Part shown: piece after piece, positions 1,939 to 33,051 of the stretch
Numbering within the stretch: the stretch's first letter is position 1
Layout of the letters: every line of letters starts with the position of its first letter
Assembly: GCA_027451885.1 (NCBI GenBank)
Contig: DAIDHX010000185.1
Location: forward strand, 1-41,033
From: Planctomycetales bacterium
Lineage (GTDB): Bacteria; Planctomycetota; Planctomycetia; Isosphaerales; Isosphaeraceae
DNA: 41,033 bases
Direction of reading: 5' to 3'
The notes under the pieces: model-generated
The model's input: only the letters and a program-made list of their open reading frames with translations
Databases searched by the model: none
Told to the model about the DNA's origin: nothing
Program-made: the position numbers and the translations under genes

Positions 1939-2348
1939 GGGTCGCGCCTCCGTGTCCTGCTCCTGCCTGATCGCTCCCTCGCCCGCCAGCGTCCTACGAC
2001 CGGCATCATGACGATATGGCCCTTTTCTGTCGAGCGTTCGCCCCAAAAGCGGCCTTTTGGTGCCATTTTATGAATGCACTCTGGCATTTATGGCACAAGG
2101 AGGGGTGCGGCGGCAGCGCTCGCGCTACGAGTCCCGAGCGCGTTCCGCCCAGGCGGCCTGCTGGGAGATCTTGAGCGTCCTGGATTTTCGCGCAGCACGC
2201 GGCTCGACCGCGGAGGGGCTGGGTGGTAGAGCGCCCGGAACGGGGAATCGGAGAAAATCGGGGACAATCCTTGATCCCGGCGGGTTGTTTACCGCGTATA
2301 ATGACGGGGTTGAAGTCAGGATCTCCGTCCCTCTTACGGAGCCGCCGC
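1939..2348. other. Divergent intergenic region
   Basis: About 410 bp separate the HTTM operon from the large plus-strand gene. Apart from the candidate promoter at 2271-2302 I see no gene, repeat or RNA structure. Open frames exist on both strands but have no start context and are not supported by resemblance to any protein. Confidence 0.6.
2271..2302 (+). promoter_or_regulatory. Candidate promoter for the 2349 gene
   Basis: A perfect TATAAT lies at 2297-2302, about 47 bp before the ATG at 2349. The best upstream hexamer is TTGATC at 2271-2276, but the spacing of 20 is long, so the -35 assignment is weak. The position argues against a translation start at 2223, which would lie upstream of the promoter. 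Confidence 0.5.
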
Positions 2349-5300
2349 ATGAGCCTGGGGACGCAAGCACCCTCGCGGGGCAAGGTGCTCGAATTCGGCC
2401 AGTTCGTGGATTTGCAAATCGCCCGCACGCGAACGCGAATCAAAACCACCGACCTCGCGACCTCGGGTCTCACACTCTTGCTGGGGTTCCTCGGTCTGCT
2501 GTTTCTGGAGATTGTGCTCGACCACCTGGTGGGGCTGCCCGCCCCGGTGCGGAAAGCGCTGTTGATCCTGGGGCTGACGGTCGGCTTCGCCTACGCCATG
2601 CTCAAGATGGTGATCCCGCTTCTGAGCAAGGTCAACGTGCTGTATGCGGCCAAGACGATCGAGCAATCGGACCAGAGCTTCAAGAACAGCCTGATCAACT
2701 ATCTCGAGCTCAAGCGCGACCCCTCGCGGATCTCCAGGACCGCGCTCCTGGCGCTGGAATCCCGCGCCGTGGCCGACCTGGCGGATGTCGAGGTGGACGA
2801 GGTCGTGAACCAGGGCCGGCTGATGAACGCGTTTTACGCGCTTTCGGCCACGATTGTGCTGTTTTGCCTGTATGCGTTTTTGACGCCGAAGAGCATCCTA
2901 GATTCAACCAAGCGTGCGTTCCTGGCCGACGTCGTGCGCCCCACGAACACCAAGCTTGTGAACATCAAGCCTGGGACCGATCCCGAGCTTGCGGAGGTTG
3001 TGGCGGGGGCGAACGTGGATTTCGGGGTTGACGTGCAGGGGGTGCGTCCCGGCCGGGTCGTGCTGCATTACAGCGTGGACGGCGGCAAGTTTTATGCCCT
3101 CCGCGACCTTGCTCCGGGCCGGCACGAGTTCGACCCCTGGCAGCACACGATGCCGAACGTGCAGCAGTCGATGGATTATTTCCTCACGGCCGGCGACGGC
3201 GAATCGCTGGTCTACCATCTGAACGTGTTGCCCGCCCCCACGATCAACGAGATCAGCCACGACCTTGATTTTCCCGAGTACACGAAGACCCCGGACCGCG
3301 CGGGTGTGGAGGGGGGGATCATCGAGGCGATCGAGGGAACGAAGGTCACCATCCACGCGGTAACGAACGCACCCGCCAAGGCCGCCACGATCAACATGGC
3401 CGACCAGTCGGTGATTCCCATGGACGTGGAAGCCGATCAGCCCACGCACCTGACGGGGCGGTTCAATGTCGGCAAGTCGGGCAGCTACAAGATTAGTTTT
3501 CGCACCACCGGTGGCCAGTTCAACCCCAACCCGGTTGTTTACGACATCATCGCCATCCCTGACCGCGAGCCGAGCGCCAAGTTCATTCTGCCCGACAAGC
3601 CGGTGGTGAAGGTTCCCGCGAACGTGAAGGTCGACCTGGTCATGACCGGGGTCGACGACCACGGCGTGAAGGACGCCACGCTCCGCGTCAACCTGCGAGA
3701 CGAGGTGGTTCTTTCGAAGAACGTGCTCGAGGGCAAGCCGGCCAGTCCGCAGTTCCAGGCGCGAGAAACGCTCGACCTGGCGACGCTCAATCTCAAGCCA
3801 GGGGACAAGCTCGAGTACAAGCTGTCGGTGCGTGACAATCGGGAGCCGTCGCCCAACCGCTGGGACACGATCAAGCAGGTGATCGAGATCGCGGCGCCTG
3901 TGTCTCCCCAGGAGCAAAAGAAGCAAGAGGCGCAGCGGAAGAAGGATCTTGACCAGCTTGCTCCGCCTCAGGAGCTGGCGGATTCTGGCGAGCCGCAACA
4001 ACCCAATGATCAGCCGCAGGATCCGCAGCCACAGCCCAACTCGGGACAGCAAGGCGCGGAGGAAAACCCCAGCGCCGCGGGGGGGCCAGGCGGCAAGGGA
4101 ACCGTCGACAAACAGCCCGGCAACGCCCAGCCCGGCGCGGACGAGCAGCAGAATCTCGACCAGCAACCCCAGAACCCGCAACAAAAGCCTGACCTCACGC
4201 CCGAGCAGCTCCGCCAGATCGAGCAGGTGATGCGCGATAAGGGGATGCTCAAGCCCAACGAGGGCAAGGGAACGCCTCCGCCGTCTTCCAAGTCCGGCGG
4301 CAGTTCCACACCGAGCGGCAAGCCCCAGAACGGCACCACCACAGGCTCGAACGACACGCCGAACCCAGGCAAGCCCGCCGGGCAACGCCCGCGCATGGAT
4401 ACCGGGGATCAGCAGAAAACGGGCTCGCAGCCCCAGCCGCGGCAGCCGGGCCGCAATGACACGACCGGGAGCGTTGCCAAGGGCGAGCGCGGAACCCAGC
4501 CCCCCTCCACCAACGGAAATCAAGAGGGCGCCCCCAACCCCGCCAGCCCTCGCACGAGTCCTGAGTCCGTCCAGCGCGGCACGGGCGACAACACGCCAAA
4601 TCCGCAGCCCAAAATGGGCGACGCCGCCAATCCGCAGACCAATAAAATCGAGCCCCAGCCTCCAAATCCAGACGCCAGGCCAGGCGAAGCTGGGAAGTCC
4701 GGCGGCGAGTCCAGTGACAAACCTTCCCAGCCTGCCGCGGCGGACACGGCCGAGACGGGCAAGACCGGACAGCAGAAACCCAGCGCGGGCAAGCCAGGCG
4801 AAGGCAAACCCGGCGAAGGCAAACCCGGCGAAGGCAAACCCGGTGAAGGCAAACCCGGTGAAGGCAAACCCGGTGAAGGTCAAGCCGGAACGCAGAAGCC
4901 AGGCGAGACAGGCAAGCCAGGCGAGGCCAAACCCGGTGAGCAGAAGCCAGGTGCTGCCAAGCCAGGCGAGACAGGCAAACCCGGCGAAGCCAAACCCGGT
5001 GACGGTCAAGCCGGTGAGCAGAAGCCAGGTGCTGCCAAGCCAGGCGAGGCCAAACCCGGTGAGCAGAAGCCAGGCGAGACAGGCAAACCCGGCGAGGCCA
5101 AACCCGGTGATGGACAAGCCGGTGAGCAGAAACCAGGCGAGACAGGTAAGCCCGGCGAGGCCAGGCCCGGTGACGGTCAACCCGGTGAGCAGAAACCAGG
5201 CGAGACAGGCAAGCCGAACGCGAATCCTGCTGGCACGCCGAACGCTCCCCAGAAGCCAGGCGGCCAGCAAGGCACGAGCGACCGCGTGAACAATCCGGCG

Positions 5301-7340
5301 AATCCGACCCCTGGTCAAACCGACCCGAATGTTCCCAACCAGCCTCACGGCGATATGAAGAAGGGTGCCGCTGGCGCGACTGGGGAAAAGCCCCAGAACG
5401 GCGAACCTGGGCCGGCGCAGGCCGGCGAGAAGCCCCAGAGCACCGAAAAGGCGGCCAATCCTGGCGAGGGGGGCAAGACCGCGCGACCGGGCGATGAACA
5501 AACCAACCCGGCCAACCCCACCAACACCCGCGAGGGACAGCCCGACCAGCCGAAGCCGGAAGGCGGCGAGCCGGGTTCGCGCAAGGGCGCAGGGGATGAT
5601 ACTGCCTCCTCGCCGACCAGGCCGCCGAAGAATCCCAACGAAGCAGGTCGGCCGATGCCGCGCAACGGCGAGAACCAGGAGCCCGGCGAACCTTCGAATC
5701 CGGCCGACCCGCCCCAGACCGCCCCAAACAGCAAGCCGAACACGCCTCGAGGAGGCACGGGGGCGGCACAGTCGAGCAATCCCAAGCCCGAGGATCAGAC
5801 CGAGCAAGGCAACGGCCGCTCTGGTGAAGGCCAGGCGGGGGGCACGCCACGTCCTGGTTCACAGCCCCCTGAAAACCCCAACACACGCAATCGCCAGATG
5901 GCCCGCGAAGGCACAGGCGGGCAGCCTAATGGCCATAAACCCAGGACCGACGCGGGCACGAACGCGCGTCCTGGCTCGCCGACTGGCAATCAAACCAGTC
6001 CGAGGGCAACCGGCTCGGACCAGCCTGCTGGCAAGAACGCACGGCCAGGCGGTGCGCCTCCTCCAGGCGCGAAGCCAACGAGCACCGAGATCTCGTCGAA
6101 CCCGAACATGGACAAGAACAACCCGCAGCAGGGGAACCCGCAGCAAGGGAATCCACAGCAGGGGAACCCGCAGCAGGGGAATCCACAGCAGGGGAATCCA
6201 CAGCAAGGGAATCCACAGCAGGGGAACCCGCAGCAAGGGAACCCACAGCAGGGGAATCCGCAGCAGGGAAAGTCTGATGCGAACGAAAGCAACCAGACTC
6301 AGGCTGAGAAGAGCGGCCAGCAGCGCGGCGGGGAGATGCAGGGAACCCCGAGCTCAACCCAGCAAGCCGGAAGCGGCGGCGAAAAGTCGAGCCAGCAAGC
6401 CGGAAGCGGCGGCGAAAAGCAAGGCAACGATTCGGGTTCGCCTGGTCGCGGCGCGAAGGGGGGCGACACGCCTTCGCAGGGATCGAGCGGCTCTCAAGCT
6501 GGGGGCAAGCAGGGTTCGGGCTCGCCGAGCTCAAGCCAGGGTGGTGGCAAGTCGAGCGGAGGCTCTGCGCAATCGCAAGGCGGTTCTGCCAGCAAGCCGG
6601 GGGGCGGATCGTCGTCAAGCGGCGGAGGGTCGCCCGGTGGCAAGCCGAGCGGCGGATCACCGAGCGGTGGATCGAACATGCAGGGCGGCCAGCCGGGCGG
6701 CTCCAACAATTCAACCTCGACCGACTCCAACGGCGGCGGCGGCGCAAACCCCAACGGCGAGGGAGGTCGCGGCAAGGGACATTCCGATAAGCCTGGTCCA
6801 GGGCCCGGCGATGGTCCCGGCAACGCCCCGTCCGCTGAGGGGCCTGAGAACCAGTTCGGCGGCGAAAACCTGGCGCCGGAAGGTTCGCCGCAGTCGGATC
6901 TCGTGCTCCGCAAAATCCCTGACCTGCTCAAGGACGACAAGGCAATGAAGGAACTTGAAGATCGGGGCTTCACACGCGGCCAGCTCGAGCAGTTCGCGTC
7001 GAAATTCAAGAAGGCCCCTGCCCTCGGACCCGGGCGCAAGGGCGAAACGATCGAGGCCAAACCCGGCGAGAAGAACACCGACGTGAAGCCGACTCCCGGC
7101 CTGCCAGGCATCGATCCCGCAACGCGCTTCTCTTCCAAGAATCAGCGTGCGCGCGGAAGCGCGGCCCAGGACGACGTCCGCGGCAACCTCGAGGGCATCC
7201 GCTCGCAGCCGCCGGCAGAGTTTCGCAGCAAGTGGAACGGCTACACCAGCCGGCTGAGCCGTGTGGCCGCTCCCCGGGCCACGATTGCCCCGAAAGCCGC
7301 ACCTGCCACAACAACCCCCGCGCAGGGCGCAGGCCGGTAA
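2349..7340 (+). CDS. Giant membrane-anchored protein with low-complexity repeat region (DUF4175-like layout)
   Basis: This 1663-residue protein starts at the ATG at 2349, with GGAG eight bases upstream. Residues 39-57, 70-92 and 161-179 are membrane helices. Residues about 190-560 form a beta-rich extracytoplasmic region with Ig-like segments, such as VVLHYSVDGGKFYALRDL and VDDHGVKDATLRVNL. Residues about 560-1510 are low complexity: Gln/Pro, then Lys-Pro-Gly-Glu pentapeptides, then Asn-Pro-Gln-Gln-Gly, then Gly/Ser. A compact C-terminal segment (about 1515-1620) contains LRKIPDLLKDDKAMKELEDRGF and a Trp-containing end. The layout recalls DUF4175/TIGR02302 proteins and the large 'putative membrane-associated' proteins of planctomycetes that sit near MoxR/DUF58 genes; no MoxR gene is visible here. 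Function unknown. It may be a stalk or envelope-spanning protein. Identity as a real gene is very sure, family is tentative. Confidence 0.85.
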   Translation: MSLGTQAPSRGKVLEFGQFVDLQIARTRTRIKTTDLATSGLTLLLGFLGLLFLEIVLDHLVGLPAPVRKALLILGLTVGFAYAMLKMVIPLLSKVNVLYAAKTIEQSDQSFKNSLINYLELKRDPSRISRTALLALESRAVADLADVEVDEVVNQGRLMNAFYALSATIVLFCLYAFLTPKSILDSTKRAFLADVVRPTNTKLVNIKPGTDPELAEVVAGANVDFGVDVQGVRPGRVVLHYSVDGGKFYALRDLAPGRHEFDPWQHTMPNVQQSMDYFLTAGDGESLVYHLNVLPAPTINEISHDLDFPEYTKTPDRAGVEGGIIEAIEGTKVTIHAVTNAPAKAATINMADQSVIPMDVEADQPTHLTGRFNVGKSGSYKISFRTTGGQFNPNPVVYDIIAIPDREPSAKFILPDKPVVKVPANVKVDLVMTGVDDHGVKDATLRVNLRDEVVLSKNVLEGKPASPQFQARETLDLATLNLKPGDKLEYKLSVRDNREPSPNRWDTIKQVIEIAAPVSPQEQKKQEAQRKKDLDQLAPPQELADSGEPQQPNDQPQDPQPQPNSGQQGAEENPSAAGGPGGKGTVDKQPGNAQPGADEQQNLDQQPQNPQQKPDLTPEQLRQIEQVMRDKGMLKPNEGKGTPPPSSKSGGSSTPSGKPQNGTTTGSNDTPNPGKPAGQRPRMDTGDQQKTGSQPQPRQPGRNDTTGSVAKGERGTQPPSTNGNQEGAPNPASPRTSPESVQRGTGDNTPNPQPKMGDAANPQTNKIEPQPPNPDARPGEAGKSGGESSDKPSQPAAADTAETGKTGQQKPSAGKPGEGKPGEGKPGEGKPGEGKPGEGKPGEGQAGTQKPGETGKPGEAKPGEQKPGAAKPGETGKPGEAKPGDGQAGEQKPGAAKPGEAKPGEQKPGETGKPGEAKPGDGQAGEQKPGETGKPGEARPGDGQPGEQKPGETGKPNANPAGTPNAPQKPGGQQGTSDRVNNPANPTPGQTDPNVPNQPHGDMKKGAAGATGEKPQNGEPGPAQAGEKPQSTEKAANPGEGGKTARPGDEQTNPANPTNTREGQPDQPKPEGGEPGSRKGAGDDTASSPTRPPKNPNEAGRPMPRNGENQEPGEPSNPADPPQTAPNSKPNTPRGGTGAAQSSNPKPEDQTEQGNGRSGEGQAGGTPRPGSQPPENPNTRNRQMAREGTGGQPNGHKPRTDAGTNARPGSPTGNQTSPRATGSDQPAGKNARPGGAPPPGAKPTSTEISSNPNMDKNNPQQGNPQQGNPQQGNPQQGNPQQGNPQQGNPQQGNPQQGNPQQGNPQQGKSDANESNQTQAEKSGQQRGGEMQGTPSSTQQAGSGGEKSSQQAGSGGEKQGNDSGSPGRGAKGGDTPSQGSSGSQAGGKQGSGSPSSSQGGGKSSGGSAQSQGGSASKPGGGSSSSGGGSPGGKPSGGSPSGGSNMQGGQPGGSNNSTSTDSNGGGGANPNGEGGRGKGHSDKPGPGPGDGPGNAPSAEGPENQFGGENLAPEGSPQSDLVLRKIPDLLKDDKAMKELEDRGFTRGQLEQFASKFKKAPALGPGRKGETIEAKPGEKNTDVKPTPGLPGIDPATRFSSKNQRARGSAAQDDVRGNLEGIRSQPPAEFRSKWNGYTSRLSRVAAPRATIAPKAAPATTTPAQGAGR
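4791..5216 (+). repeat. Coding pentapeptide tandem repeats (KPGEG type)
   Basis: Six 15-bp units encoding Lys-Pro-Gly-Glu-Gly run head to tail at 4791-4880. They are followed to about 5216 by longer imperfect units built from KPGETGKPGEAKPG, DGQAGEQ and KPGAA blocks. All repeats stay in the frame of the 2349 gene. The repeated block structure suggests expansion by unequal recombination or replication slippage. Confidence 0.9.
6120..6269 (+). repeat. Ten coding tandem repeats of NPQQG
   Basis: Ten consecutive 15-bp units encode Asn-Pro-Gln-Gln-Gly without a single amino-acid change. The units differ only at synonymous positions (AAC/AAT, CCG/CCA, CAG/CAA, GGG/GGA), so the protein sequence appears to be kept while the DNA drifts. 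Confidence 0.95.
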
Positions 7341-24947: not shown

Positions 24948-25138
24948 CTAGAGTGATGTGATGTCTTGCGGGCCGCGGATGGGGCAGCGCGGCGCGATGG
25001 AGCAAACCCAGGCGCGACCGGCGTTAGGTCACGAGCGGCTTCGAAAATCGTAATTCTGCAAGGCGGCCTGCGACTTCAGGGACCCACGCGCGCGGCGTGC
25101 GGCCAGGTCGCCAGCCGGGGCCTCGGGAGGAGACTTCG

Positions 25139-26008
25139 ATGTCGACTGATGCACAGTCGCGCTTGCGAGTCGGGTCGAGCGGTCGCTGGTTGCTATTCCT
25201 GGTGTTGAGTAGCTGGCTGGGCTGGAGCCATCTGGTTGACAGTGCGCCTGCCCGCGCGCAAGAACCGGCCAAGAACGAGGCCCCGAAAGAAGAGGAACCC
25301 GCGGCCAAGAGCGATGCACCCGCCAAGAGCGATGCGCCCGCCGCCGAAGGCGCAACGCCGCCCCGCCGCGAGAACATGCTTCAGTGGGCCATTCGGGCCT
25401 CGGGTCCGATCGGGCTCTTCCTCCTGTGCCTGTCGGTCTATTTCACCGCCCTCGTGATCCGCCTGTTCATGGAATTCCGGGTGAGCGAGGCCGTGCCCCC
25501 GCCCCTGATCGAGAAGCTCGAAACCGCGATCAAGGAAAAGAAATTCCAGGACGCCTACGACGCCTGCAAGGACGGTGAATCGTTCCTGGCCCGGCTCGTC
25601 CGCACCGGCATCGCCAACCTGCCCGCCGGCAGGCCCGAGGCCAAGGAAGCCATGCAAGCCGCGTCCGAGGAAATCGACACGCACCTTGAGATGAAGATCA
25701 GTTACCTGGCGATCATCGGCACCCTGGGCCCCATGATTGGGCTCGTGGGCACGATCTGGGGCATGATCATGAGCTTCCAGGAAATCGCCACCGCGGCGGG
25801 CGCGCAACCCCGGCCGGAAAAGGTGGCCGAGGGGATCTCGACCGCGCTTTTCATCACGCTCGAGGGGGTCTCGCTCTCGGTCCCGGCGATCTTCTTCTTC
25901 GCGTTTTTCCGCAATCGAATCGCACGCATGTCGATGGAAGCGAACCGCGTGGCCGATCGTGTGATCAATTCGCTCGTTGCCGCGGCCAAGGCGCCCAAGA
26001 CCGCGTAA
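25139..26008 (+). CDS. MotA/TolQ/ExbB proton-channel family protein
   Basis: A 289-residue protein starting at an ATG with a strong GGGAGGAG binding site. Residues 1-41 look like a signal peptide ending APARAQ. A charged Ala/Pro/Lys linker with two copies of AKSDAP follows, then three membrane helices (about 87-108, 183-213 and 238-265). The core motifs LGPMIGLVGTIWGMIMSF and EGISTALFITLEGVSLSVPAIFFF are those of ExbB/TolQ. With ExbD it forms a proton-driven motor that energises outer-membrane or envelope processes. The extra cleavable N terminus is seen in several planctomycete ExbB proteins and differs from E. coli ExbB. It starts a four-gene operon. Confidence 0.92.
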   Translation: MSTDAQSRLRVGSSGRWLLFLVLSSWLGWSHLVDSAPARAQEPAKNEAPKEEEPAAKSDAPAKSDAPAAEGATPPRRENMLQWAIRASGPIGLFLLCLSVYFTALVIRLFMEFRVSEAVPPPLIEKLETAIKEKKFQDAYDACKDGESFLARLVRTGIANLPAGRPEAKEAMQAASEEIDTHLEMKISYLAIIGTLGPMIGLVGTIWGMIMSFQEIATAAGAQPRPEKVAEGISTALFITLEGVSLSVPAIFFFAFFRNRIARMSMEANRVADRVINSLVAAAKAPKTA

Positions 26009-26024
26009 CCGGAGGGCATTGCCA

Positions 26025-26495
26025 ATGGCTGGCTCCGCTGGGGGTGAGTTCAAGGCCGAGCCCAACTTGACGCCCCTGCTCGATGTTGTGTTCCAGTTGA
26101 TCACGTTTTTCATGCTGGTGATCAACTTCAGCAATGACAATTACGACAAGCGAGTCAAGCTCCCCGTGGCCGATTCCGCGCGCCCGGTCGAGGACGCCAA
26201 TCAGGCGAACGTCGACCGGCTCGTGCTCAACATCGACCACGAGGGGCACCTGCTCGAAGGCAATGAGGTCCAGCCGCTGCACAAGGCAATCGAGACCATC
26301 AAACGGCATGCGGGGTTCGTGCGGCTGGGGCTCAAGGTCGCTGGCAAGAAGCCCGACCCAGGCGGTGGGCTCCCGACCGTGATCGTGTTCCGCGTCGATC
26401 GCGACGCCGACTTTTCCTCCCTGAACAGCATGATCAAAGCGTGCCAGGCCCAGGGATTCCGCAAATTCGCCTTCAAGGCGATGTCGGGAAGCTAG
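26025..26495 (+). CDS. ExbD/TolR-family protein 1
   Basis: A 156-residue protein with one N-terminal membrane helix preceded by NLTPLLDVVFQLITFFM. D20 is the conserved membrane aspartate that carries protons in ExbD/TolR. The rest is the periplasmic domain (VIVFRVDRDADFSSLNSMIKACQAQGFRKFAFK). GGAGG lies nine bases before the ATG at 26025, and the gap from exbB is 16 bp. It should assemble with the ExbB protein and the second ExbD. Confidence 0.92.
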   Translation: MAGSAGGEFKAEPNLTPLLDVVFQLITFFMLVINFSNDNYDKRVKLPVADSARPVEDANQANVDRLVLNIDHEGHLLEGNEVQPLHKAIETIKRHAGFVRLGLKVAGKKPDPGGGLPTVIVFRVDRDADFSSLNSMIKACQAQGFRKFAFKAMSGS

Positions 26496-26530
26496 GCCCC
26501 AGGCACGCGCACACGCGGGAGTAATTCGCC

Positions 26531-27040
26531 TTGAAAGCCAGCGAAGCCAGACGCCGGAAAGCGCAGGCGCCCGATGTTCCCATCGCGCCCATGCTCGACA
26601 TGGCGTTTCAGCTCCTCACGTTTTTCGTGCTCACGTATCACGCTGCGCCCATCGAAGGCCAGTTCATGATGAACCTGCTGCCCCCGCAGCCGGCAACCGC
26701 GATCACCCCGGAATCGCCCTCGGAACAGCCGTCCGATGCGCTCCCGACCACGCTGCGCACGCTCCCCACGATTCTTCGCGCAGGCGGCGGCGGCCGGCTC
26801 GATCAGATCAAGGTCGGCGAGCAATCCATCTCGACCGACACCAGGGAGCTCGGCAAGGAACTCGACAAGTACTTCCAGGATCCAGATTTGCCCTTCGACC
26901 AGACCCTGATCAAGGTCGATCCCAAGCTCCGCTACGGCGAGCTCATGCGGGTGATCAATGCGTTTTCCGATGCCTTTGTTCGAGCCAAGAAGCCTCCCAA
27001 GCTGAGCTTCGACGAGCTCCAGCCTGGCGAGTCGGAGTAA
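26531..27040 (+). CDS. ExbD/TolR-family protein 2
   Basis: A 169-residue protein with a TTG start and GGGAG nine bases upstream. The single helix IAPMLDMAFQLLTFFVLTY contains D23, the conserved proton-carrying aspartate. The periplasmic part has a Pro/Thr/Ser linker and an ExbD-like domain ending VDPKLRYGELMRVINAFSDA. Two different ExbD proteins behind one ExbB suggest a heteromeric periplasmic dimer, as inferred for other planctomycete ExbB-ExbD-ExbD operons. Confidence 0.9.
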   Translation: MKASEARRRKAQAPDVPIAPMLDMAFQLLTFFVLTYHAAPIEGQFMMNLLPPQPATAITPESPSEQPSDALPTTLRTLPTILRAGGGGRLDQIKVGEQSISTDTRELGKELDKYFQDPDLPFDQTLIKVDPKLRYGELMRVINAFSDAFVRAKKPPKLSFDELQPGESE

Positions 27041-27047
27041 TCCGCTC

Positions 27048-27956
27048 GTGGATCGTTCATCCTCGTTCTTCCAGGGGACCGAGCTGCCCCGGCTGCTCGT
27101 CCTGGTGGCAATCGCGGCCTTCGGCTGGGGGGCAGTTTGGTGGTATGCACATACCCCCGTGCCCGTGGCCGAGCCGCCCCTCGCCGCCGCGGCAAACCCG
27201 CCCCAGGTGGAACCCGATCAATCGCCCGAATTCGCCGCCGTGACCGATCGCACGCCGCTGTCCCTCACCGACAACGGCGCCTATTCTCTTTTGCTCGACC
27301 GGGCCCGTGCCAGGACGCCCAACGAACTTGCCTCGATCAGCCGCCGCGACGTCATCTTGCCCCATCTGTGGAACGACCCCGCACGCTACCGCGGGATTCC
27401 GATCCACTTGCTCGGGACCGCGCTTCGTGTGATCCGCTATCCTTCCAAGCTGAGCAAGACGGGCTGGTTGTACGAGGCGTCGATCATCACGCCCGAGACC
27501 TCGCGAGTACCCTATATTTGCGTATTCGAGGATGCGCCGACCGGCCTGCCGATCGGAGCCAACGTCTCCGAACGCGTCGTATTCAACGGCTACTTTCTCA
27601 AGATCTGGCGCTACCAGGCTGGCGACGCGGTTCGGGGCGCTCCCTTGCTCGTCGGCCGGCTGGGGTGGTCGCCCAGCGAGCCTGGCCCAGGCACGGGCGA
27701 CTTCACCCTCAAGCTCTCGCTCATCGTCGTCGCCCTGTTTTTCGTGATTTCGTTCCTGCGCTGGGGCTATCAGCTCAGCAAGCTCTTCATCTCCCCGACC
27801 CGGCGGAAAGAAGCCGCGCCTCAGACTCCGCCGGCCGAGTCCATTGCGCCTGACGCCCTGGCCGCGTGGCTCCAGTCCGAAAGCCAGGCCGCTCAGGAGA
27901 GCCCAGCCGCCGAGGAACCGCGCCCAGGCGAACCGGATCCGGCGGCCGAATCCTAG
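27048..27956 (+). CDS. Two-helix membrane protein of the ExbB/ExbD operon, unknown function
   Basis: A 302-residue protein beginning with GTG, seven bases after the second exbD, so co-translation is likely. One membrane helix lies near the N terminus (about 15-33) and one at about 224-244. The roughly 190 residues between them would be periplasmic and contain ILPHLWNDPARYRGIPIHLLGTALRVIRYP, which reads like a beta-rich small domain. The C-terminal tail is cytoplasmic, Ala/Glu/Pro-rich and probably disordered. I recognise no family with confidence. By context it could couple the Exb motor to an envelope partner, in place of TonB or TolA, neither of which is present. Confidence 0.8.
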   Translation: MDRSSSFFQGTELPRLLVLVAIAAFGWGAVWWYAHTPVPVAEPPLAAAANPPQVEPDQSPEFAAVTDRTPLSLTDNGAYSLLLDRARARTPNELASISRRDVILPHLWNDPARYRGIPIHLLGTALRVIRYPSKLSKTGWLYEASIITPETSRVPYICVFEDAPTGLPIGANVSERVVFNGYFLKIWRYQAGDAVRGAPLLVGRLGWSPSEPGPGTGDFTLKLSLIVVALFFVISFLRWGYQLSKLFISPTRRKEAAPQTPPAESIAPDALAAWLQSESQAAQESPAAEEPRPGEPDPAAES

Positions 27957-28051: not shown

Positions 28052-28080
28052 TTGACACCAGGATACGGTTCTTCTAGTGT
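28052..28080 (+). promoter_or_regulatory. Candidate promoter for the ATPase-SPFH operon
   Basis: A perfect TTGACA (28052-28057) is followed after 17 bases by TAGTGT (28075-28080), three of six -10 matches including the key first A and last T. If real, transcription would start near 28087, downstream of the ATG at 28083, and translation would have to begin at the ATG at 28146. Confidence 0.4.
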
Positions 28081-28082
28081 CA

Positions 28083-31000
28083 ATGGCGGGCTGCGCCTGC
28101 GTGGCGCACCTTTCCCTCCCTGGCGACCCACCGCGGTTTTGTGCGATGCACCGTGAATATCGACCGCCTGCGCACGCGGGAGCAAGCGCAGCACGTGACC
28201 AGGCCCGCGATCGAGCGCTTCTGGCGTTCACGGTTTTTCTGGGCGTGCTGATCGGGGTCGACCTGGCTGCCGCCTGGCTCATGGGCCGGCCGGTGCGGGT
28301 CTTCGGCATCTCGCTGATCTGGGTCGCGGGCATCGCGGGCGCAGTGCATCTGGTCTATGGCGCCCTGCGCGCGCTCGGCGGCGGGAGCGTGGGGGCCGAC
28401 TTTGCGCTGGCGCAGGCATCGCTGGCCGCGCTTGTGCTGGGAGAGCCATTCGTCGCGGCTGAGGTCGTCTTCATTGCGCTCTGCGGCGAGCTCATCGAGG
28501 CCTGGACATTCACGCGCGCCCAGCGTGCGATTGCGGGCCTCGTGGAACGGACGCCGTTGACCGCCCGAGTCACGCGCGATGGCGAGAGCGTGACCATACC
28601 CGCCGAGCAGGTGCGCATCGACGAACGGGTGACGATTGCCGCGGGCGAGCGCATACCGGTGGACGGCCGCGTGCTCACAGGCCGGTCAACGGTCGACGAG
28701 CGGGCGCTTTCGGGCGAGCCGTTGCCCGTTGATAAAGGGCCTGGCGACCGGGTCTATTCCGGCACGTTGAACCAGTTTGGAGCGATCGAGATCGCGGCCG
28801 AGCGCGTGGGACAGGAGACCACGCTCGAGCAGGTGGCGAAGCTCACGCGGTCCGCGCTTGGCCGCAAAGGCAACTGGGAGCGCACGGTCGACCGGCTGGC
28901 GCGGTGGTTCCTGCCGGCGGTGGAAATTGCGGCCGCACTGACGCTCGTGGCGGGATATGCGCTCGGCTGGCCCGACGTCTGGTCGCGGGCGACCGCGGTG
29001 CTGGTGGTTGCATGCCCGTGCGCGCTTGTGCTGGCCACGCCGGCCGCGATGCTGGCGAGCCTCGCCTGGCTGGCCCGGCACGGGGTGGTGGTGAAGGGGG
29101 GCCGGGCACTTGAGCGGCTGGCGGGTTGCCGCGTTTTTGCCTTTGATAAGACCGGCACCTTGACGCGTGGGCAGCCGGAAGTCAGCGCCGTAATCAGTGT
29201 GGGTGCGTGGAGCGAAGACGCGCTGGTGCGCATGGCCGCGGGAGTGGAGGGATCGAGCGGGCATCCGCTGGCGCGGGCGGTTGTGGCCGAGGCGGCAAGG
29301 CGCGGGCTGGAGCCAGCGCGGCTGGTAGAGTCCGAGACCACGCCGGGCTTTGGCGTGAGCGGGCGTGTGGAGACCGGCGACGGCGGTGCCGCCAGCGTGA
29401 TTGTGGGCAATCGCCGCTTCCTGGCCGATCTGGGATTCACAGTCGCGGACGACTCGCCGGCCGCGGTAGCCATCGCCGGGCTCGACTCCAGGGGCATGTC
29501 GTCGCTGTTCGTGGTCGTCGAGCAGGCAGTGGCCGGGGTGCTCGGCGTCTTCGACCCCGCGCGTGCGGAAGCGCACGACGTGATCCACGACCTGCGGCAC
29601 CTGGGGGTGCGCGAGGTGGTGATTCTGACGGGCGACCGCGCAGCGGCGGCCACGGCTGTCGCCAGGAAGGTCCACGCCACGGCGACCTTCGCCGAGCTCT
29701 CACCAGCGGGCAAGGCGAGCTGGATCGAGGAAAGGCGCCAGGCGGGCGCGCGAGTGGCCATGGTCGGCGACGGCCTCAACGACGCCCCTGCCCTGGCCCG
29801 CGCGGATGTTGGACTGGCGATCTTCACCCCGGGTGCCGACCTCGCGGCCGAGGCGGGCGATATTGTGCTCATCGGCGACCCCTTGCGCGTCCTGCCGGGG
29901 CTCCTCGAGCTGGCACAGAAAACCGTGCGCACCATCCAGGTGAACGTGGTTGCCTTCGCGATCGGCCTGAACGCCGTCGCGGTGCTGCTCGCCAGCCTGG
30001 GCATCCTCGGCCCCATCCCCGCCGCGCTGCTGCATCAGGCGGGCTCGCTGTTCGTGATGCTCTTTGCGCTGCGGCTGCTCTTCTTCGGCGACTGGCAGAC
30101 GTGGGCACCCGTGGCGAAGGCACGCGCTCTTGCAAAGGGTCTCGAGCGACTCGACCAGAAGGTCGACCTCGACGCCATCGCGCGCGAGGCGACAAAGTGG
30201 CTTTTGAGCCGCGCGGCCAGGCGATGGGCGGCTGCGCTCCTGGCGCTTGTGCCGGCGGCGGCGGCGGTGCAGGTCGTGCGTCCCGGCGAGTGCGGAGTCT
30301 CCACCCGTCTCGGCCGTTTCCAGCGCGTGCTCGAGCCAGGCTTGCATCTCGTGTGGCCCGCGCCCATCGGCCGCGTGGCCATCATCCAGACCGACCTCGT
30401 GCGCGGGCTCGAGCTGGTTTTCCGCGAGCCGTCGTCCCCCAGCCGAGACGATGCGCGGGCGCTCGTGCTCACGGGAGACGGCCGGTATCTTGAGATCACC
30501 GCCGCGCTCCAGTACTCGATCGACGGCTCGAGCACCGAGTCGCTCAAACGCTTTGCCTTCACCGGCGACTGGACGGACGAGGGGCTGCGCTCGGTCCTGG
30601 AATCGGCGATTCGCGAGGTTGCGGGCCAGCGGCCGTTGCTCGAGCTTGCGACCACGGGCCGCGCGGAGGCGGAGCAGGCGGCGACCATACTCGTCGCGCA
30701 CAGGCTCCAGGAAGCCCAGGCCGGGTTCCGCGTGCGCGGGGTGAGCTTCCAGGAACTGCGGCCGCCGATCGAGGTGCTCGACGCCTACCGCGACGTCTCC
30801 CGCGCTGAGAGCGACCGGGCGCGGAGAATCACCGAGGCAACCTCTTACCGCGACAGCGAGGTGACCTTGGCCCGCGGCCGCGCTCAGGAAATCACAGCCA
30901 CCGCGGCCGCCGCCGCGGCCCAGGCCACAAATCGCGCTCTGGGCGAAAGCGAGGCCGCAATCGCGATCCTCGCCGCCAGGCGTGGGATCGCCTCGCTGGT

Positions 31001-31196
31001 TGATCTCGAGCTCTACCACCAGGCCATCGCTCGCGCGCTCGACGGGCAGCCGAAGATCGTGATCGAGCAAAAGCCGGGAAGCAAGGGAAGGCTCATCTTC
31101 CCCGCCGCGGGAGGCCCCGCGCTCGGTGCTCTGCTGGCACCCGAGCCCGCGCGAAACGCCGCCAGTTCAGCCGAGAAATCGCAGGTGAAGCCATGA
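28083..31196 (+). CDS. P1B-type metal-transporting ATPase fused to an HflK-like SPFH domain
   Basis: A 1037-residue fusion (numbering from the ATG at 28083). Residues 1-670 are a P1B ATPase: membrane helices, an LSGEP actuator loop, CPC at 311-313 in VVACPCALVLATPAA, phosphorylation site DKTGT at 355-359, the P1B-specific HP in SGHPLA, GDGLND at 562-567 and two final helices. There is no CxxC HMA domain. The last helix carries HQAGSLFVMLFALRL, which fits neither the Cu nor the usual Zn pattern exactly. After about 45 linker residues an additional helix (about 715-732) leads into an SPFH domain (VRPGECGVSTRLGRFQRVLEPG) with an Ala-rich coiled-coil end, as in HflK. The SPFH part would then lie in the periplasm. 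The N terminus has CVAH and CAMH, a possible zinc site, which would be lost if translation starts at 28146. Both downstream genes are also SPFH proteins. Confidence 0.9.
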   Translation: MAGCACVAHLSLPGDPPRFCAMHREYRPPAHAGASAARDQARDRALLAFTVFLGVLIGVDLAAAWLMGRPVRVFGISLIWVAGIAGAVHLVYGALRALGGGSVGADFALAQASLAALVLGEPFVAAEVVFIALCGELIEAWTFTRAQRAIAGLVERTPLTARVTRDGESVTIPAEQVRIDERVTIAAGERIPVDGRVLTGRSTVDERALSGEPLPVDKGPGDRVYSGTLNQFGAIEIAAERVGQETTLEQVAKLTRSALGRKGNWERTVDRLARWFLPAVEIAAALTLVAGYALGWPDVWSRATAVLVVACPCALVLATPAAMLASLAWLARHGVVVKGGRALERLAGCRVFAFDKTGTLTRGQPEVSAVISVGAWSEDALVRMAAGVEGSSGHPLARAVVAEAARRGLEPARLVESETTPGFGVSGRVETGDGGAASVIVGNRRFLADLGFTVADDSPAAVAIAGLDSRGMSSLFVVVEQAVAGVLGVFDPARAEAHDVIHDLRHLGVREVVILTGDRAAAATAVARKVHATATFAELSPAGKASWIEERRQAGARVAMVGDGLNDAPALARADVGLAIFTPGADLAAEAGDIVLIGDPLRVLPGLLELAQKTVRTIQVNVVAFAIGLNAVAVLLASLGILGPIPAALLHQAGSLFVMLFALRLLFFGDWQTWAPVAKARALAKGLERLDQKVDLDAIAREATKWLLSRAARRWAAALLALVPAAAAVQVVRPGECGVSTRLGRFQRVLEPGLHLVWPAPIGRVAIIQTDLVRGLELVFREPSSPSRDDARALVLTGDGRYLEITAALQYSIDGSSTESLKRFAFTGDWTDEGLRSVLESAIREVAGQRPLLELATTGRAEAEQAATILVAHRLQEAQAGFRVRGVSFQELRPPIEVLDAYRDVSRAESDRARRITEATSYRDSEVTLARGRAQEITATAAAAAAQATNRALGESEAAIAILAARRGIASLVDLELYHQAIARALDGQPKIVIEQKPGSKGRLIFPAAGGPALGALLAPEPARNAASSAEKSQVKP

Positions 31197-32146
31197 AAAC
31201 ACGCAAAACCGCCGCCGGGCTGCTCGCCATTCTCGCCGCGCTCGGCGGGATCTATCGCGCGATCGTGGTGGTGGACGAGACCGAGTACGTGGTGGTGACC
31301 AACTTCGGCAAGATCGTCGCCGTGCATGGCGCGCATGAAGGCGACGCGGGACTGCACTGGAAGGCGCCCTGGCAGGAAGCACACCTGATCGACAAGCGTG
31401 TGCGCGTGCTCGACGGCCCGCCGCGAGAGGTGATCACGGGCGACAAGCGCAACCTCGAAGCCGCGGCCTACCTGATTTACCGCGTGGCTGATCCCGTGCG
31501 ATTCTTGACGGGCGCGGGGGGACGCGAAGCGGCTGAGGCCCGGCTACAGGAGCGCCTGGCCGCCGCGCTCTCGGACGTCATTGGCCGCCACGATCTCGCC
31601 GCGCTCGCCTCGACCGAGAAGAACCGCTTCGCGCTCGACGAGATCTCGCGCGAGGTGGCCAGGATGGCCGCGAGCGCCAGCCGGGACGAGCTGGGGGTCG
31701 AAATCCTCGACGCCCGGCTCAGGCGCTATAATCACCCGCTCGAGGTCCGCCCGGCCGTGTTCGAGCTGATCCGCGGCGAGCGCAGGCAGGTCGCCGCCCG
31801 GCTCCGCGCCGAGGGCGAAGCGCAATACACCACCATCACCAGCCAGGCGGATCGCACCCGCGCTGAGATTCTCTCAAGCGCGGAGGCCGAGGCCGAGCGC
31901 ACCCGCGGCAAGGCCGAGGCCGAGGCCGCGCGGATCCTGGGCAAGGCCCACGAACAGGACCCTCGCTTCTACGAATTCCTGCGCACTCTGGAATCGTACC
32001 GCGCGATCCTCGACGGCCGGACGACGCTCGTGCTCTCGGCGTCGAGCCCGCTCTTCAAGCTGCTGGTCGAAGGCCCGCCGCACCCTCCGGCGCAGGATCC
32101 CGGATCAGAACGTCCGATTGTGAAAAACGGAGCCAGCGCCCCATGA
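31193..32146 (+). CDS. SPFH-domain protein, HflC-like
   Basis: A 317-residue protein whose ATG overlaps the stop of the ATPase-SPFH gene (ATGA). An N-terminal helix (about 7-22) is followed by an SPFH domain: VVVDETEYVVVTNFGKIVAV, GLHWKAPWQEAHLIDKRVRVLDGPPREVITGDKRNL, YLIYRVADPVRFL. The last phrase and the ITGDKRNL segment are typical of HflC. A charged Ala/Glu/Arg coiled coil follows (SSAEAEAERTRGKAEAEAAR), then EQDPRFYEFLRTLESYRAIL, again HflC-like, and a Pro-rich tail. HflC forms alternating rings with HflK around FtsH at the inner membrane. Here the partner HflK domains are in the neighbouring genes, and FtsH is not in the window. Confidence 0.88.
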   Translation: MKTRKTAAGLLAILAALGGIYRAIVVVDETEYVVVTNFGKIVAVHGAHEGDAGLHWKAPWQEAHLIDKRVRVLDGPPREVITGDKRNLEAAAYLIYRVADPVRFLTGAGGREAAEARLQERLAAALSDVIGRHDLAALASTEKNRFALDEISREVARMAASASRDELGVEILDARLRRYNHPLEVRPAVFELIRGERRQVAARLRAEGEAQYTTITSQADRTRAEILSSAEAEAERTRGKAEAEAARILGKAHEQDPRFYEFLRTLESYRAILDGRTTLVLSASSPLFKLLVEGPPHPPAQDPGSERPIVKNGASAP

Positions 32147-33051
32147 TCGCTCGCGGTTGGCTTCGCCTTTTCCTGGGAATCGCCGGCGGGGCTGTGGTTG
32201 TGGCTGCGCTTGGGCTCGTGTCGATCGAGCCCGGCGAGGTGGGAGTTGTCAGGCGGTTCGGGCGCGTACTCGATCCGGTGTGGCAGCCGGGTCTGCACTG
32301 GCGGCTGCCGTTCGGGATCGACCGGCTCGACCGCGTGCGCCCGGCGGAGGTTCGGTCGCTTGAGATTGGGCACAAACGTGAAGCAGGGCTCGAAGGAGAG
32401 CTGGGCTCGGGTGAGGTGCTGAGCGGAGACTTGAACCTGCTGAACATCGCGTCCACGGTGCAATACCGGGCAGCGCGGCCCGCGGCCTATGTGGTGCGTG
32501 CGGAGCAGGTGGAGATGATTCTCACGCGGCTTTTTGAATCCGCGGCGAGCCGGGCAATTGCGCACACGGCCGTGGACGAAGCGCTCCGCGGCGGCCGAGG
32601 CGCCATCGCGCGTGAGGTCGAGCAAACCCTCGCGGCCGAGGTGAGCAGGCTACGGTTGGGCGTGGAGATTCTCTCGGTCGGCTTTAGCGACATGCGACCG
32701 CCGATCGAGGTCGAGGCGGATTTCGCCGCCGCACAAAGCGCGGAGAGCGAGCGCGATAGCCGCATTGCCCTCGCCCACGGCCAGGCCGACGCCCAGCTCA
32801 CGCGTGCGAAGGCCGAATCCATCGCCATCGGCGAGCGCGCAAGCGCCCAGGCGCTTGGCCTGGTGCGCCAGGCTCAGGCGCGGGCGGATCGCTTCGCCGT
32901 GCTCGAGCGCGAAACCCGCTCCAGCCGCGTTTTGGCCGAACGCAGACTCTACATCGAAGCCCTGCGCTCGATCCTGCAACGCGTGAAGACACGCCTACTT
33001 CTTCCCGGCGACGACGCGCTCGACATGACCATCCTGGGTACGCCCGGCTGA
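32143..33051 (+). CDS. SPFH-domain protein, HflK-like
   Basis: A 302-residue protein starting with another ATGA overlap. One N-terminal helix (about 5-26) precedes SIEPGEVGVVRRFGRVLDPVWQPGLHWRLPFGIDRLDRV, a clear SPFH start. ASTVQYRAARPAAYVVRA, VEILSVGFSDMRPPIEVEADF and an Ala/Glu/Arg coiled coil up to ERRLYIEALRSIL follow. The order of elements resembles HflK, and the protein resembles the SPFH part of the upstream fusion, suggesting duplication. It ends two bases from the stop of the converging trmB-like gene. The three genes probably make one membrane complex. Confidence 0.87.
   Translation: MIARGWLRLFLGIAGGAVVVAALGLVSIEPGEVGVVRRFGRVLDPVWQPGLHWRLPFGIDRLDRVRPAEVRSLEIGHKREAGLEGELGSGEVLSGDLNLLNIASTVQYRAARPAAYVVRAEQVEMILTRLFESAASRAIAHTAVDEALRGGRGAIAREVEQTLAAEVSRLRLGVEILSVGFSDMRPPIEVEADFAAAQSAESERDSRIALAHGQADAQLTRAKAESIAIGERASAQALGLVRQAQARADRFAVLERETRSSRVLAERRLYIEALRSILQRVKTRLLLPGDDALDMTILGTPG

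Follow-up and report, generated by a model that had tools for sequence, protein, structure and literature searches.

A P1B-type metal ATPase fused to an HflK-like SPFH domain in Planctomycetota and Acidobacteriota, with a parallel fusion of cation diffusion facilitators

The contig DAIDHX010000185.1 of a Planctomycetales bacterium of the Isosphaeraceae (assembly GCA_027451885.1) was analysed over positions 1 to 41,033, a stretch of 41,033 nucleotides that is referred to here as the window. It carries a gene in which a complete P1B-type heavy-metal ATPase is joined, by way of a ninth membrane helix, to an HflK-like SPFH domain (SPFH-A), and which is followed by genes for two further SPFH proteins (SPFH-B and SPFH-C). 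The fusion recurs in Planctomycetota and Acidobacteriota, and in a further set of loci a second metal transporter family, the cation diffusion facilitators (CDFs), occupies the place of the pump. Each part belongs to a known family; new to us are the combination, its spread, and the CDF parallel. No description of a P-type ATPase–SPFH or CDF–SPFH fusion was found in open-access text, and an earlier mention is possible. A preliminary description of this DNA had proposed the fusion in the window; the spread across phyla, the CDF parallel, and a fourth gene go beyond it.

Architecture of the fusion gene

One uninterrupted frame, 28083–31196, features the Pfam domains E1-E2_ATPase (residues 157–333 of the frame opening at 28083), HAD hydrolase (350–575), and Band_7/SPFH (731–920), all well over their cut-offs and in this order. 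The end of the gene is as first described, whereas its start has moved: the most likely start codon is the ATG at 28146 (MHREY...) rather than 28083, because, as judged by a promoter-like site, transcription is predicted to begin at or after 28083 and because the homologues L038, L048, L085, and L091 begin with MHREY at the corresponding codon. With this start, the protein has 1016 residues (Table 1). The promoter-like site is missed by a strict consensus scan, its TAGTGT being a poor match to TATAAT; look-alikes of the form TTGACA-17/18-TAGnnT were seen by eye 5' of the fused gene in L038, L045, L050, and L054. The search for a Zur- or Fur-like box upstream of the fusion yielded just short inverted repeats, none of them common to the relatives.

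Table 1. Features of the fusion operon in the window (residue numbers refer to the 1016-residue protein)
Feature	Position	Strand	Basis
Promoter-like site TTGACA, 17-nt spacer, TAGTGT	28052..28080	+	Look-alikes upstream of homologues, read by eye
P1B ATPase–SPFH fusion protein, 1016 aa (most likely start)	28146..31196	+	Pfam, NCBIfam, motifs, alignment, AlphaFold2
P1B metal-pump part: eight membrane helices, A/P/N domains, CPC, N in M7, HQxGS in M8	28146..30095	+	Pfam, motifs, AlphaFold2, Foldseek
Linker, predicted cytoplasmic	30096..30221	+	K/R versus D/E counts in the fusion family
Ninth membrane helix	30222..30287	+	Hydropathy; AlphaFold2 helix 675–707
SPFH/Band_7 domain (SPFH-A), HflK-like	30273..30842	+	Pfam, NCBIfam, alignment to HflK
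Long C-terminal helix, counterpart of the HflK coiled coil	30768..30986	+	AlphaFold2 helix 875–947; alignment to HflK 84–350
SPFH-B, HflC-like, 317 aa; ATGA overlap with the fusion gene	31193..32146	+	TIGR01932; alignment to HflC of the cage
SPFH-C, HflK-like, 302 aa; ATGA overlap with SPFH-B	32143..33051	+	TIGR01933; alignment to HflK of the cage

The metal pump

The pump part features all hallmarks of a P1B-type heavy-metal ATPase: a CPx motif in the membrane (CPC), the TGE-like SGE, DKTGT, HP, GDGxND (GDGLND), and eight helices. It scores 513 bits on the NCBIfam heavy-metal P-type ATPase model TIGR01525 (cut-off 346), which bears out the initial reading of a complete pump. DKTGT is found in all 78 fused homologues described below and GDGxND in all but one. 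In a 56-row alignment, C290, P291, and C292 (CPC), N609 in the seventh membrane helix (M7), and H630 in the eighth (M8) are invariant. The M8 motif reads H[QE]xxS in the window and the fused set, and its His aligns with the HEGST motif of 7qbz, a P1B pump of known structure. CxxC is absent from the first 150 residues of all 78 fused sequences, many of which begin with a His/Asp-rich tail.

P1B-2 ATPases (ZntA) carry Lys in M7 and Asp in M8 (DTG); P1B-1 ATPases (CopA) combine MxxSS in M8 with an N-terminal CxxC domain; and P1B-4 ATPases (CoaT-like) feature SPC in the membrane and HEGGT/HEGST in M8. The fusion shares with all three the catalytic motifs, the eight helices, and the fold, yet its metal-site set of CPC, N (M7), and H[QE]xxS (M8) matches none of them exactly. 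N and H[QE] stand where Lys and Asp would be expected in a ZntA-type pump; the M8 motif and the lack of a CxxC domain set the fusion apart from CopA; and the M8 His aligns with that of CoaT-like pumps, but the membrane motif is CPC and not SPC. The C-terminal ninth helix and SPFH domain separate it further from all three. This motif set, the lack of CxxC, the His-rich tails, and the aligned M8 His together point to a zinc-class divalent metal as the most likely cargo.

The SPFH domain and its predicted topology

SPFH-A, SPFH-B, and SPFH-C score 66.4, 81.3, and 85.6 bits, respectively, on Pfam PF01145 (cut-off 23.6) and hence belong to the SPFH/Band_7 superfamily. On the HflK equivalog model TIGR01933 (cut-off 159.4), the window fusion reaches 127.2 bits, so that by the NCBI threshold SPFH-A is HflK-like and not HflK; one acidobacterial fusion scores 197.6 and passes the cut-off. 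SPFH-A aligns by sequence to residues 84–350 of HflK in the solved cage. The AlphaFold2 monomer, computed on the 56-row alignment with a pLDDT (predicted local distance difference test) of 85 and a pTM (predicted template modelling score) of 0.67 that leaves domain placement uncertain, features the eight pump helices, the ninth helix, the SPFH strands and helices, and a C-terminal helix of 73 residues. Foldseek with the whole model ranks P1B structures first. The HflK likeness and the coiled coil of the preliminary description are retained, the latter from the alignment and the modelled helix; by score, the domain stays short of HflK proper.

The linker that leads from the eighth helix to the ninth averages approximately 41 residues in the fusion family and carries 8 K/R compared with 3.7 D/E. 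Because eight helices bring the chain back to the cytoplasm and the ninth crosses again, as in HflK, the SPFH domain should be periplasmic. The net positive linker and the HflK-type topology support this placement, and hydropathy and the AlphaFold2 model agree with the originally suggested plan of eight pump helices and one added helix.

Operon partners and a fourth gene

The ATGA overlaps between the three window genes imply a single transcript, and in nearly all complete loci SPFH-B and SPFH-C come after the fusion, often with the same overlaps. SPFH-B scores 167.9 bits on the HflC equivalog TIGR01932 (cut-off 134.4) and matches HflC of the cage structure with E 3e-34. SPFH-C reaches 135.1 bits on TIGR01933, under the cut-off of 159.4, and matches HflK of the cage with E 3e-25. 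The alignments of SPFH-A, SPFH-B, and SPFH-C to HflK, HflC, and HflK of the cage start at the membrane helix and end close to the cap; for SPFH-B and SPFH-C they span the greater part of the protein.

The E. coli HflK/HflC cage around FtsH (7vhp, 7wi3) has subunits of the same plan, with a membrane helix at the N terminus followed by an SPFH domain and a long coiled coil, and is likewise encoded by overlapping genes in one operon. The window trio differs in having three different subunits instead of two, the first of which carries an eight-helix metal pump, and ftsH lies outside the window. In addition, many fused trios come with a fourth gene: in 43 of the 78 fused loci, mostly directly after SPFH-C, a small protein of mostly 145–220 residues with one N-terminal helix is encoded (for instance, L103:11062-11574). 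Its product matches no Pfam or NCBIfam family at threshold; the AlphaFold2 model (pLDDT 84) and Foldseek point to an NTF2-like fold, and the gene is therefore predicted to encode a membrane-anchored NTF2-like protein. It is not part of the window operon, where SPFH-C is followed by a tRNA methyltransferase-like frame on the opposite strand, nor was it found elsewhere in the window genome by a search without its own positive control.

Conservation and distribution

The same domain order was sought in other genomes by a family-level search (45 genomes), a class-level search, 40 loci read gene by gene, and 80 further named loci from a genome-collection scan run with a four-row alignment. The loci read yielded 78 fused homologues with more than 500 residues of pump plus SPFH-A, of which 58 are left at an 80% identity filter. 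The SPFH part sits in frames of approximately 1020–1300 residues in most carriers of the family-level search, and likewise in many families of the class-level search. The carriers are mainly Planctomycetota and Acidobacteriota and include the cultured Singulisphaera acidiphila DSM 18658 (L090, NC_019892.1) and Singulisphaera sp. GP187 (L089). In S. acidiphila, NC_019892.1 encodes SPFH-B, SPFH-C, and the fourth protein as well as the fusion. The fusion also occurs in two Armatimonadota (L095, L131) and in a metagenome-assembled genome (MAG) labelled Verrucomicrobia (L128); the MAG labels Cytophagales (L133) and Acidimicrobiia (L106) on fused loci may be binning errors. Sampling of genomes gave full fusions in approximately 16 of 343 Planctomycetota and 10 of 149 Acidobacteriota, both lower bounds since few candidates per genome were scored. 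Among 299 Pseudomonadota, the fusion model found none with just two candidates per genome scored; with the SPFH-A model, ordinary HflK dominates and no fused frame is among the matches listed.

In a 62-row tree, a branch with an SH-aLRT (Shimodaira–Hasegawa-like approximate likelihood ratio test) support of 98.8 separates the fused SPFH-As from the other rows, which fits a single origin of the fusion. When all SPFH types are put in one tree, the placement of long branches (L063, some SPFH-C) is unsure, and the order among SPFH-C, CDF-fused SPFH-A, and HflK is not to be read from it.

That an assembly error or frameshift joined two genes is, for practical purposes, ruled out. The window does come from a 316-contig genome, and frame breaks occur inside the pump in L053, L065, L108, and L122; the pump–SPFH junction, however, is free of breaks and open in all 78 loci, most of them from separate assemblies and including complete genomes such as that of S. 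acidiphila DSM 18658. L053:3465-6313, part of a single-contig genome, encodes the pump in two frames that overlap by 4 bases within the cytoplasmic domain, and the pump–SPFH junction is still fused. Close relatives that encode pump and SPFH domain as two genes, the other circumstance raised at the outset as speaking against a true fusion, were not found. Standalone pumps of similar type (L203–L205) have no SPFH gene nearby.

A parallel fusion with cation diffusion facilitators

At 15 loci, a CDF domain (PF01545) stands in the pump's place, fused to SPFH-A, with the genes for the HflC-like and HflK-like partners again coming next (L116:7281-9002, L123, L127, L135, L146–L149, L151, L152, L154, L155, L159, L162, L163). 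The same arrangement is present at L083:5266-6813. The carriers are mostly Candidatus Eisenbacteria, together with a Victivallaceae MAG (Lentisphaerota), some Planctomycetota, and, beyond the 15 loci, the plasmid NZ_CP018172 of the alphaproteobacterium Aquibium oceanicum; the other plasmid HflK/HflC matches examined are ordinary hflKC pairs with no P-type ATPase or CDF genes adjoining. In the CDF parts, helices two and five each bear HxxxD, as is known for zinc CDFs, and after the six-helix part a seventh helix and the SPFH domain replace the usual cytoplasmic domain. In the tree, CDF-fused SPFH-A rows split to two positions, with a single clade not rejected (approximately unbiased test, p-AU 0.47). 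A ZntA-type pump with Lys in M7 and DTG in M8 lies near the CDF–SPFH fusion in L149 and L155, and an ArsR/SmtB regulator gene in L151. That metal transporters of two families without relation to each other are joined, at one and the same site, to the same trio subunit is the strongest functional argument for a link to metal transport.

A gene for a PpiC-type peptidyl-prolyl isomerase adjoins CDF–SPFH trios at L083:9402-11096, L149:5247-7319 (upstream of the trio), and L155:5244-7298 (by position and size only); in Aquibium it separates the trio from the metal ATPase. This gene hints at a part in folding exported proteins or in loading them with metal. A further variant, L063:5641-7470 on the minus strand (genome G291), features SPFH-A with a multi-helix N-terminal region of approximately 280 residues without a Pfam match; its trio has a separate P1B pump with the motif CPG instead of CPC.

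An unfused arrangement in Pseudomonas aeruginosa

The P. aeruginosa cluster PA2434–PA2439 contains hmtA (PA2435) and three SPFH genes and is 5.6–14.4-fold up in a znuA mutant (PMC4542158); its proteins are more abundant on zinc depletion (PMC11761036). Like the window operon, HmtA–PA2437–PA2438–PA2439 groups one P1B pump gene with three SPFH genes, here in a cluster induced by zinc limitation (PMC4542158, PMC11761036). Unlike in the window, pump and SPFH proteins are separate genes, and the likeness is drawn from published gene order (PMC4542158). HmtA was reported as an importer of zinc and copper (PMC4542158, PMC8456098), an activity in need of confirmation according to a later review (PMC10393844). 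The SPFH proteins PaFlo5-7 are encoded in one predicted operon (PMC13086221, 2026) and are probably the PA14 counterparts of PA2437–PA2439. The main text of that paper does not name hmtA, and its survey of nine P. aeruginosa SPFH proteins reports no pronounced phenotypes (PMC13086221).

A model of the assembly and its alternatives

We propose, with the balance of evidence about even, an SPFH assembly of the HflK/HflC type with three subunits, one of them bearing the metal pump, and with a periplasmic ring or dome that covers the pumps. The pump would span the inner membrane, its ATP-driven domains facing the cytoplasm. The C terminus would recross the membrane, as predicted from sequence and model, so that SPFH domain and coiled coil end up in the periplasm. 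There, SPFH-A would co-assemble with SPFH-B and SPFH-C, as HflK does with HflC, into a ring or dome round the pumps—expected because all three subunits match HflK/HflC/HflK of the solved cage. Such an assembly would pin the pumps in a defined membrane patch and roof their periplasmic mouths, and the metal, presumably a divalent ion of the zinc class, would pass in or out via a confined space instead of the open periplasm. On direction, we lean slightly toward export over import; the covered mouth, taken for the exit side in the preliminary description, may be exit or intake.

Several points weigh against this model. For all members, assembly, stoichiometry, topology, and transport are read from sequence and from a model computed as a monomer, whose pTM leaves the placement of the domains uncertain. 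The charge difference across the ninth helix is modest (3.1 compared with 2.5 K/R in 15 residues), with the inside-before orientation favoured in 39 of 77 sequences, tied in 23, and opposed in 15. SPFH-A falls short of the NCBI HflK cut-off, and a single ring may lack room for eight or more pumps at its rim. In one study cited in a review (PMC10393844), Zur failed to bind the hmtA promoter. Finally, the window genome contains one FtsH and, as far as found, no second HflK/HflC-like pair, so the trio may also serve FtsH.

This last point leads to a reading that we regard as unlikely, in which the SPFH trio is the lineage's HflK/HflC, acts mainly on FtsH, and tethers the pump for metal-dependent degradation or sparing. 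Besides the single FtsH, it draws on SPFH-B clearing the HflC equivalog cut-off and on the control of FtsH access to membrane proteins by HflK/C in E. coli (PMC12048511). The ftsH gene, however, is located on a different contig; in at least one case, genome G307, a fused trio coexists with another strong HflK-like locus outside it, a finding that speaks against a role of the trio as just the local HflK/C; and the fusion of a second transporter family at the same place is left unexplained.

Somewhat less doubtful, though still improbable, is that the pump works as an importer in the manner of HmtA, with the SPFH assembly gathering scarce periplasmic zinc or copper or handing it over at the intake, a reading that overlaps the covered-pump model. 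The neighbourhood of HmtA and three SPFH genes, its reported import of zinc and copper, and the response of the operon to zinc starvation favour it (PMC4542158, PMC8456098, PMC11761036). It is weakened by the comparison being one of gene order, by the call for confirmation of HmtA import (PMC10393844), and by the ZntA-type pumps—a family known for efflux—that adjoin the parallel CDF–SPFH loci. A simple targeting or stabilising device, by which SPFH-A keeps the pump in an SPFH lipid microdomain with no enclosure, would agree with the wide proposal of SPFH proteins as membrane-microdomain organisers (PMC13086221) and would do without the enclosure that our model conjectures. Yet all three subunits resemble the cage-forming HflK/C, coiled coil included, and a conserved, dedicated partner pair would be superfluous for a tether; we consider this explanation improbable.

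Neighbouring genes in the window

Upstream of the fused operon, positions 25097–27956 hold ExbB-ExbD-ExbD genes and a gene for a 302-residue protein without a Pfam match, which recurs within approximately 10 kb of the fused gene in several genomes of the same family (L042, L044, L050, L053). Farther away, the gene at 2223–7340 encodes a protein of 1705 residues that contains long stretches of low-complexity repeats, KPGE and NPQQG; these repeats account for the extreme AT skew (0.60) at 4001–6000.

Implications

The role of most bacterial SPFH assemblies is unsettled, and the fusion to two unrelated metal transporters gives a substrate class, a partner, and a physical link. In a broader and more tentative proposal, HflK/C-type SPFH cages could act as dedicated metal-transport compartments: a periplasmic three-subunit dome on an exchangeable transporter (P1B or CDF), with helpers nearby (NTF2-like, PpiC-type), would provide a confined space for metal release, capture, or loading into exported proteins. 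HmtA and PaFlo5-7 of P. aeruginosa, so far studied apart, are suggested to be one system. With this third, unfused arrangement reacting to zinc starvation, a role of SPFH cages in metal transport becomes testable.

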